This document shows positions 8,747 to 60,392 of a DNA stretch of 64,000 nt, in pieces. The notes below the pieces were generated by a model. The model made no database searches. It had not been told where the DNA came from and saw only the letters and a program-made list of their open reading frames with translations. The DNA lies in assembly GCA_902806405.1 (NCBI GenBank), contig CADCWL010000247.1, forward strand, positions 1-64,000. The letters are read 5' to 3'. The translations under genes and the position numbers were made by a program. Numbering within the stretch: the first letter of the stretch is position 1; each line of letters opens with the position of its first letter. The DNA comes from an uncultured Thermomicrobiales bacterium (GTDB lineage Bacteria; Chloroflexota; Chloroflexia; Thermomicrobiales; UBA6265).

Positions 8747-11356
<2,610 letters not shown>

Positions 11357-57296: not shown

Positions 57297-58460
57297 TCAC
57301 CGGGTCCAGGCGCGCACCCCCTGGCGAAAGGACGCGGCGAGGTCGGTCATCCGGCGGGCGGCGAGGGGGAACGGGGCGAGATGGTGGTAAACGTGGACGA
57401 AGCGGTCGGCGGTGAAGATGCCACGGTATTGACCGTCCTCGGTCACCGGAATAGCCCACCGGTTGAGCCGATTCATCCGGTGCTGGACGTCATAGACCGA
57501 CTCATCGACGGTGGCCGTCACCACGTCCGGGTCCATCACGTCCGCCACCGTCAGGCGGGAACCGCCGTGCAGTTCGTGCAGCACATCGTGGCGCCAGAGC
57601 ATCCCGACCACTCGGCCGCGGTCCGTCACCGCCAGATCGCGCGGCCCGCCGCGGAGCGCGTAAGCGAGGGGCTGGTGCGGCGCGATGCCGCCCATGTCCC
57701 ACAGCGCGAACTGCCCGACCCGGAGGCGGCGCATCGCGCCTTCCAACCGCACCGCCCGCCCCTCCGCCTGGGCCATCACGACGATGAAGACGGCGATCAG
57801 GACCGCCGCCGGGTTCTGGAGCCAGACCAGGGAGACGATCGCCAGCGCGACCGCCAGCGCCTGCCCGACCAGGACCGCGGTCCGGGTCCCCGTTTCGCGG
57901 CCGACCACGAGTGTCAGCACCGCCCGCAACACCCGTCCGCCATCGAGTGGGAAGGCCGGCAACATGTTGAAAAGGACCATCAGGGCATTAGCGTAGAACA
58001 GCCAGACCAGGAGACTGCCGACCGACACGCCGAGCGCGAGATCGACGTACTCCCCGCCAGAGGCGAGGCCGTGCGTCACCCCGTAGAGGAGGATGACCGG
58101 CGCCAGCGCCACCATCACCGCCACGTTCATCGCCGGCCCGGCGAGCGCGATCAGGACCTCGGTCGACGGGCGCGAAGGAACATGCTCGGTGCGGGCGACG
58201 CCGCCGATCACGGAGAGGGTCACGTCGTGCACCCGGACGCCAAAATGCATCGCCATGAAACTGTGCCCGAGCTCGTGGAGGAGCACGCAGGCGAAGACGA
58301 GCCCAACGAGGAGCAGTCCGAACAGGACCGCGACAATCCCGGCGAGGCCGGAGGCATCGGTCCCCCACTGGAAGAAGACATAGAGGAAAACCAGCCCGAA
58401 GCTGGGGTGAAGCTTGACCTCGACGTCCCGCACGCGGCCAAGCGTGAACGTACCCACCAT
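57297..58460 (-). CDS. Site-2 protease family (M50) with C-terminal CBS domains
   Basis: CVLLHELGHSFMAMHFGV; NMLPAFPLDGGRVLRA; CBS-like VADVMDPDVVTATVDESVYDV. Confidence 0.92.
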   Translation of the reverse strand: MVGTFTLGRVRDVEVKLHPSFGLVFLYVFFQWGTDASGLAGIVAVLFGLLLVGLVFACVLLHELGHSFMAMHFGVRVHDVTLSVIGGVARTEHVPSRPSTEVLIALAGPAMNVAVMVALAPVILLYGVTHGLASGGEYVDLALGVSVGSLLVWLFYANALMVLFNMLPAFPLDGGRVLRAVLTLVVGRETGTRTAVLVGQALAVALAIVSLVWLQNPAAVLIAVFIVVMAQAEGRAVRLEGAMRRLRVGQFALWDMGGIAPHQPLAYALRGGPRDLAVTDRGRVVGMLWRHDVLHELHGGSRLTVADVMDPDVVTATVDESVYDVQHRMNRLNRWAIPVTEDGQYRGIFTADRFVHVYHHLAPFPLAARRMTDLAASFRQGVRAWTR

Positions 58461-58698
58461 GCCGCCCCGCGCTTCGCGCTACGCCCCTGCGTCGCCGGTC
58501 CGTCAAACATTAAGTCGCGCCACCTGACGATCACAATTATACAGTCAACGTGCGACGCCGCATAACGCCGCGCACCCGAACGTCGACTGCACCGCCCCGT
58601 CGAAAGGAGCGAACGGGGACGACCGCCGATTGCGTCAAAGGAGTAGAGGAACACAACCTCCTGCTCGCTTGGGGAAGGAAGAGAATTCTGCAAGATTG

Positions 58699-58727
58699 TT
58701 GCCACCGTTCCAGGGCGTGCCTATACT
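58699..58727 (+). promoter_or_regulatory. Putative sigma70-type promoter of rpoN-like gene
   Basis: TTGCCA - 17 nt - TATACT, 118 nt upstream of ATG. Confidence 0.5.
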
Positions 58728-58844
58728 GGCGAGGCGGTCGTGTGCCAGTTAGGCAGCACGGCCGCGATCGCCGGGAGCGCGCAGCCCCCCGCGACGCTGC
58801 AGGCCTTGGCGCTGCGGACCGATTGGGATGAGAGGACAACGGGG

Positions 58845-60392
58845 ATGGAAAGCGGGTTCGAACTCTCGCACGAGATGCGAACCTGGGTGTCGCCCAGTCT
58901 GATCGAGGCGAACCACATCCTCAGCCTCTCGCGGCAGGAGCTCCAGGCCGCCGTCGCCGCCGAGATGGAGGCGAACCCGGCGCTGGAGATGGACGAGCGC
59001 CAGACCTGCCCGCTCTGCGGCAACGTCCTCGACGGCACCTTCTGCACCGTCTGTCTCGTCAGTCAGCGCACCGACGCCAACCCCGAGAGCTACGAGGACT
59101 TCCCCGAGACCGCCGCCACCGGCAACCAGACCTCCGACGACAGCGACGACTTCGACCCGATGACACTTATCGCCGAGGACTTCGGCCTCCGCGAGCAGAT
59201 TCTGGCCGACGCCCGCACGATCCTCGAGCCGGAGGAGTACCCGATCGCCGAGTACCTCGTCGACTCGATCGACGACCGCGGCTTCCTTGCCGCCGACACC
59301 GCCGAGCTTGCCACCCTCCTCGACCGCCCGATCGAGGAGATCGAGGGGATTGTCGAGGTGATCCAGGACGTCGCCCCGGTCGGCGTCGGTGCCCGCAACC
59401 TCCGCGAGTGTCTCCTCCTCCAGCTCCGCTTCCTACTGGAGAGCGGACACCCGGCGCCGCCCCACGTTGGGCGGATCATCGCCACGCACCTCCCCGAGTT
59501 CGGTGCCCACAAGTACGGCCAGATCGCCAAGGATCTGGGCCTTACCGCCGAGGACGTGGAGGCCGCGCGCGATTTCATCCGTACCCACCTCAACCCGTTT
59601 CCGCTCCAGACCCAGCAGGCCCGCTCCTGGCGGACACCGACCCGATCCCCCTTCGTCGCCCCGGACGTGATCATCTCGATCAAGGACGGCGCCCTCCACG
59701 TCGAGGTGGTCGAGACCAAGCACTTTCACCTTCGCCTGAGCCCCATCTACGACCGCCTCGGTGAGGCGACCGGCCGCCGCAGGTCCGCCGCGAAGGCGAA
59801 CGGCGCAACCACCACCGGCAGCGCCACCTCCGCCAACGGCACCGTCGCCCTCGTCACCGGCAACGGAGCCTCTAATGGGCACGCCGTCGCTCCCATCGCC
59901 ACCACCCGGCCGCTCGCCTCCCTCCTCACCTCGGACGAGGACCGCGCCCACGTCCGCCAGTACTCCTCGCGCGCCAAAGTCTTCATCTCCAACATCCAGC
60001 AGCGGCGCGAAACGCTGCTCAAGATCAGCCGCTGCATCTGCGGGCTGCAGGAGAGCTTCCTGCGGGGCGGCGTGAGGGAACTTGTCCCGTTGACGCGAGC
60101 GGTCGTCGCCCAGCAGGTCGGCGTCCACGAGTCGACGGTGAGCCGTGCGACGGCGAACAAGTACGTGATGCTGCCGACCCGCAAGGTGATCCCTTTCAGC
60201 GACTTCTTCACCCCCTCCCTCAGCACCAAGGATGTGATCAAGGAACTGATCGAGCGGGAGGCAAAGAAGGGCGAGCCGCTGACCGACCGCCGCATCTGCG
60301 ACCTCCTCCTCAAGCAGGGTATCCGGATCGCCCGCCGGACCGTCGCCAAATACCGCGCCGAGCTCGGCATCCTCCCTTCGACAATGCGGTAG
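58845..60392 (+). CDS. rpoN: RNA polymerase sigma-54 factor, divergent, with zinc-ribbon-like insert
   Basis: RpoN box ARRTVAKYRAELGI; VIQDVAPVGVGARNLRECLLLQL core-binding motif; CPLCGNVLDGTFCTVC insert. Confidence 0.88.
   Translation: MESGFELSHEMRTWVSPSLIEANHILSLSRQELQAAVAAEMEANPALEMDERQTCPLCGNVLDGTFCTVCLVSQRTDANPESYEDFPETAATGNQTSDDSDDFDPMTLIAEDFGLREQILADARTILEPEEYPIAEYLVDSIDDRGFLAADTAELATLLDRPIEEIEGIVEVIQDVAPVGVGARNLRECLLLQLRFLLESGHPAPPHVGRIIATHLPEFGAHKYGQIAKDLGLTAEDVEAARDFIRTHLNPFPLQTQQARSWRTPTRSPFVAPDVIISIKDGALHVEVVETKHFHLRLSPIYDRLGEATGRRRSAAKANGATTTGSATSANGTVALVTGNGASNGHAVAPIATTRPLASLLTSDEDRAHVRQYSSRAKVFISNIQQRRETLLKISRCICGLQESFLRGGVRELVPLTRAVVAQQVGVHESTVSRATANKYVMLPTRKVIPFSDFFTPSLSTKDVIKELIEREAKKGEPLTDRRICDLLLKQGIRIARRTVAKYRAELGILPSTMR

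Follow-up and report, generated by a model that had tools for sequence, protein, structure and literature searches.

The sigma-54 proteins for which structures have been solved (PDB 7qv9, 8f1i and 9msg) possess an activator-interacting domain (AID), a core-binding domain (CBD), an ELH/HTH part and an RpoN box. In the published holoenzyme structure RII.1, the initial segment of region II, lies within the downstream dsDNA channel (PMC7057263); region II is flexible (PMC7057263; PMC10786286) and is reported to be poorly resolved. The activator threads the N terminus of sigma-54 and unfolds RI-H1, about 26 residues (PMC12054792); how its reaction terminates has been stated to be an open question (PMC9770992). 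Region II is acidic and free of cysteine in proteins of the E. coli type and is usually called a variable, dispensable linker. In H. pylori an RpoN-interacting zinc-ribbon protein, FlgZ/HP0958 (PF02591), protects RpoN from turnover.

The window analysed here, 64,000 nucleotides from an uncultured Thermomicrobiales bacterium, contains an rpoN gene (Table 1) whose product shares with the solved proteins the AID, the CBD, the ELH/HTH part and the RpoN box, as well as the co-occurrence with a GAFTGA activator and a nearby -24/-12-type element. It differs from the E. coli type in that a four-cysteine (Cys4) knot stands straight after region I, so that the region usually regarded as dispensable here holds a strongly conserved module of metal-binding type. 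The module resembles FlgZ/HP0958 in its CxxC...CxxC arrangement of zinc-ribbon type linked to RpoN function and differs from it in that FlgZ is a separate protein with another CxxC spacing. Most of what is known about how sigma-54 works comes from proteins that lack a module of this kind, which would provide a natural handle on the role of RII.1 in the downstream channel and on the stopping of region I threading. A search of the open-access literature, where absence is not proof, returned no account of any sigma-54 with a metal module, and the module-bearing protein is apparently an undescribed variant that is standard within its clade.

Table 1. Features of the rpoN locus, in window coordinates.
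Feature	Positions	Strand	Basis or remark
M50-type site-2 protease	57297..58460	-	Family by sequence recognition; divergent rpoN neighbour
-24/-12 sigma-54-type element TGGCAACAATCTTGC (TGGCA-N5-CTTGC)	58690..58704	-	Points away from rpoN, to the M50 protease gene
Sigma70-type rpoN promoter TTGCCA-17-TATACT	58699..58727	+	Sequence; conserved in most relatives
rpoN / sigma-54, 515 aa	58845..60392	+	Start codon backed by alignment; in-frame GTG at 58740 less likely
Region I / AID, residues 15-49	58887..58991	+	PF00309, 31.4 bits (cut-off 23.8)
Four-cysteine zinc-ribbon-like module CPLCGNVLDGTFCTVC (C55, C58, C67, C70)	59007..59054	+	7 residues past NPAL, in region II
Rest of region II, residues 77-110	59073..59174	+	Acidic, predicted disordered
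CBD, residues 109-302	59169..59750	+	PF04963, 130.2 bits (cut-off 22.9)
Gly/Ala/Thr/Asn-rich linker, residues ~306-361	59760..59927	+	Unconserved; lowest model confidence at 326-346
DNA-binding domain (DBD), residues 370-515	59952..60389	+	PF04552, 125.4 bits (cut-off 22.8)
RpoN box ARRTVAKYRA	60330..60359	+	Sequence, alignment

As judged from its sequence, the product of 58845-60392 is a working-type, almost certainly activator-dependent RpoN with intact AID, CBD and DBD. Each of the three domains exceeds its Pfam cut-off, and the match to the NCBIfam equivalog TIGR02395 (280.4 bits) also lies above the cut-off of 277.35. The first-pass annotation had regarded the RpoN box and the core-binding motif as well preserved, and the Pfam matches confirm the CBD, the DBD and the box; in an alignment ARRTVxKYR is invariant among close relatives, the nearest of which by sequence are Thermomicrobiales/Sphaerobacter MAGs. 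The same annotation called the N-terminal region I diverged, and this does not hold where it matters. PF00309 is matched above its cut-off here and was matched by 94 of 94 homologues, the helix pattern and the NPxL end are retained, AlphaFold places the two region I helices at residues 17-27 and 30-43, and the Gln-rich character is missing from the first ~14 residues only. To speak of a divergent sigma-54 is likewise to place the emphasis wrongly, because the Cys4 architecture is standard in Chloroflexota and in most of the sampled Armatimonadota. A pseudogene was considered and dropped, as the ORF is intact and present in single copy (no second sigma-54 gene was found in the host genome); a sequencing or frame artefact was dropped as well, since independent genomes agree.

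The cysteines C55, C58, C67 and C70 form a CxxC-x8-CxxC arrangement in region II, at the residues and nucleotides (59007-59054) originally reported. In the alignment the four columns are occupied by cysteine in 125, 125, 120 and 124 of 127 Chloroflexota sigma-54s (94-98%) and in 27, 24, 27 and 25 of the 31 from Armatimonadota. After thinning to 75% identity the motif is kept in 83/85 and 21/24 sequences, respectively, and it is absent from five of five outgroup sigma-54s (Bacteroidota, Gamma- and Alphaproteobacteria, Bacilli). Because the cysteines are conserved across homologues, the first objection named against the module, a lack of such conservation, fails. Among the 127 Chloroflexota homologues the columns flanking the cysteines are mostly far more variable, and the positions of the module vary except for the cysteines and a few Gly, Leu and Pro. 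The distance from NPxL to the first cysteine is exactly 7 in 110 of 125 Chloroflexota and 22 of 27 Armatimonadota proteins, and in Chloroflexota C2 and C3 are most often 8 apart (89/125). The last cysteine, by comparison, is separated from the conserved D104 by anything from 18 to 54 residues across Chloroflexota. The spacing is thus nearly fixed before the module and variable after it, which links the module with region I and not with the downstream part of the protein. On the evidence of these alignments the Cys4 module is the rule in the sigma-54s of two phyla, Chloroflexota and (in most of those sampled) Armatimonadota, the sampling having covered these phyla, five outgroups and PDB sequences, with little from outside the two.

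When the motif is mapped on a tree built from the core- and DNA-binding domains, with a motif-free root, its distribution corresponds to four Fitch changes, which fits a history of about one gain and three losses. The motif-free lineages are L102, a member of the Chloroflexota nested inside motif-bearing sequences, and L191, L193/L199 and L197 from the Armatimonadota. Since it has been lost in some lineages, the motif is not indispensable. A Cys-free protein labelled as Chloroflexota (L031) groups with Azospirillum with a support of 1.0 and is probably a transfer or a contaminant, not a Chloroflexota loss. A plasmid search with region I and the module gave no match with E <0.2, most of the matches listed ending near the end of region I, and 13 RpoN-like matches were found in phage records.

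AlphaFold (94 homologues) gave a mean pLDDT of 86-90 at residues 51-70 and of <50 at residues 77-110, so that the module is predicted with confidence to fold within an otherwise disordered region II. In the full model the two region I helices are followed by short strands at 47-50 and 61-63; when region I and the module were modelled alone the confidence was the same and there was little strand content. Foldseek searches with the full model returned sigma-54 chains as the only significant matches. With the N-terminal/module model nothing significant was found in the PDB (best E 0.59), and the weak matches include many Cys proteins that bind Zn or Fe. The double zinc ribbon PF12773 resembles the module in its CPxCG-type knuckles and differs from it in that the module has one Cys4 site only; this profile is weakly matched by 48 of the 94 homologues (best E 0.0014) and not by the window RpoN itself. 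The module is real and conserved and, from the sequences compared, very likely metal-binding, and there is a high probability that it binds zinc.

The first-pass annotation had set the protein against a canonical region II that is acidic and without a CxxC module. As regards the module, which is present here, the distinction stands; acidity is nonetheless kept past the module, where residues 71-104 include 10 D/E versus 1 K/R. The Gly/Ala/Thr/Asn linker reported between the core-binding and DNA-binding parts is real, but freely variable. From residue 303 to 365 the window RpoN has 62 aa, versus 9-26 aa in most Chloroflexota homologues. Such a linker occurs chiefly among close relatives, and the model shows it as disordered. 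By alignment and model, it is an unconserved, largely disordered spacer.

No enhancer-binding protein had been seen in the window, and this is confirmed; a PF00158 match at 9194-9547 is weak, lies inside a ClpB/ClpC-like ORF and was rejected as an activator. The GAFTGA DNA pattern is too noisy genome-wide in GC-rich genomes, and PF00158 at a strict E value was used instead. The search for a GAFTGA AAA+ activator in the host genome located one strong Sigma54_activat protein, the single true activator (G000:C35:94554-95054, 244 bits), with a receiver, an AAA+ domain containing ESELFGHEKGAFTGA (GAFTGA) and a Fis-type HTH. Among the 61 genomes of the class, which are related and thus do not amount to 61 independent trials, 34 encode a full-strength sigma-54 (>110 bits), and the identical 34, when the lists were compared by hand, possess exactly one strong activator (>190 bits). 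A full sigma-54 and a strong activator are both missing from the remaining 27. In two relatives (L209 and L211) the activator gene adjoins rpoN. In two others, L212 (G283:C23) and L213 (G347:C51), rpoN is followed by a same-strand kinase-like gene and then by the activator, in one apparent operon; a domain scan, carried out for L212 only, identified a PAS histidine kinase and an activator of the response regulator type. Because region I is kept and the co-occurrence of sigma-54 and activator is strict, activator dependence is almost certainly retained, as far as can be read from these genomes. The earlier suggestion that the module changes this dependence finds no support, given that the same 34 of 61 genomes carry sigma-54 and activator and that activator genes adjoin rpoN in relatives. 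The arrangement of one sigma and one activator would make the system simple to reconstitute.

Some further observations concern these genomes. The layout in L212 and L213 places a module-bearing sigma-54 together with what is apparently its own two-component system. Decayed rpoN remnants with in-frame stops are present at G083:C57, G203:C40 and G225:C4, in genomes without a strong activator. In family f3 (G049, G115, G131, G218, G232 and others) there are AAA+ proteins of ~630-660 aa that score 155-165 bits to Sigma54_activat, and the genomes that encode them are without an intact sigma-54.

In the explanation that we prefer, the first part of region II, at the position of RII.1, would form a small Cys4 metal knot, most likely with a structural zinc, that is joined to the last residues of region I in nearly fixed register. 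The knot would lie in or close to the downstream-DNA channel, the site of RII.1 in published holoenzyme structures. It would make the hinge that connects region I with the remainder of sigma-54 stiffer, keep the channel occupied before DNA is loaded and, by resisting unfolding, confine activator threading to region I. We infer the plug or stop role by analogy with structures in which region II is without such a knot. Among the effects proposed for the module in the first-pass annotation, an influence on open-complex formation is possible and is the reading that we favour. The explanation as a whole, namely an activator-dependent sigma-54 with a Cys4 zinc knot at RII.1 that serves as plug and threading limit, is put forward tentatively, as slightly less than an even bet. 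The more specific proposal that the knot is a built-in hard stop at which the AAA+ pore stalls, so that the extent of unfolding depends on how far the knot lies from the N terminus, seems to us unlikely; if true, it would be a natural answer, found in two phyla, to the question of how AAA+ remodelling of sigma-54 ends. In TFIIB an N-terminal zinc ribbon is followed by the reader and linker and so precedes the segment that enters the polymerase cleft; the likeness to the window RpoN is a lead only and implies no homology. Region 1.1 of sigma-70 is helical and metal-free. It is like RII.1 of sigma-54 in position, both lying in the downstream-DNA channel (PMC7057263), but no sequence similarity was noted.

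The module might instead be a docking surface for core RNAP, for the single activator or for a stabiliser, and thus a built-in counterpart of FlgZ/HP0958, whose CxxC/CxxC zinc ribbon is needed for RpoN accumulation (PMC3372290). A profile search with PF02591 gave no match in the window RpoN and none in the host genome, a gap that a version within RpoN would close, and a dedicated contact is favoured by the finding that each genome has a single sigma-54 and a single activator. However, the residues of the module vary beyond the cysteines and a few Gly, Leu and Pro, unlike those of a conserved interface, and the FlgZ ribbon has x18-26 between its CxxC pairs (PMC3372290) where the spacing is mostly x8 here. 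We regard docking as possible, if rather unlikely.

Two other explanations are made improbable by the pattern of conservation. The knot might be a lineage relic that stabilises the fold but matters little, placed as it is where the protein varies most; region II is indeed variable and has been described as non-essential elsewhere (PMC12316311), and there are several losses of the motif on the tree. Nevertheless, the cysteines are maintained at 94-98% in Chloroflexota, with a near-fixed spacing to region I, while the remainder of region II drifts, and such a relic is improbable. The near-universal conservation over two phyla also looks structural, which argues against a redox or metal sensor, the response that had been suggested at first, in which oxidation or loss of zinc would shift region I and switch the activity of sigma-54. 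It is true that two CxxC pairs adjoin a regulatory region, but the activators scanned are response regulators, already a signal input, and no redox-linked genes were tied to the module, and a sensor is improbable as well.

Inspection of the region upstream of rpoN reveals that the -24/-12 element overlaps the -35 of the sigma70-type rpoN promoter. Of 22 loci scanned, 20 have a TGGC...TTGC-type site at the corresponding position, compared with a background of 4.3% of 400-nt windows; the exceptions are L021 (Armatimonadota) and L023. Most of 18 loci inspected have an M50-type protease gene divergently next to rpoN. By its arrangement the M50-type protease gene is a candidate sigma-54 target, and sigma-54 holoenzyme bound at the divergent element could repress rpoN, resulting in autoregulation. 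In some relatives (rpoN upstream regions of L001-L020) there is also a site that faces rpoN. Genome-wide, the canonical TGGCACGN4TTGC is not enriched over the reversed pattern, and TGGCAN5CTTGC has 18 occurrences versus 5 for the reversed control, some of them just upstream of ORFs. At four loci of the host (L062, L063, L072 and L223) sigma-54-type sites lie ~60-180 nt upstream of ORFs, and the ORFs behind these sites include, by eye, one PRC-barrel-like and one solute-binding-like protein.
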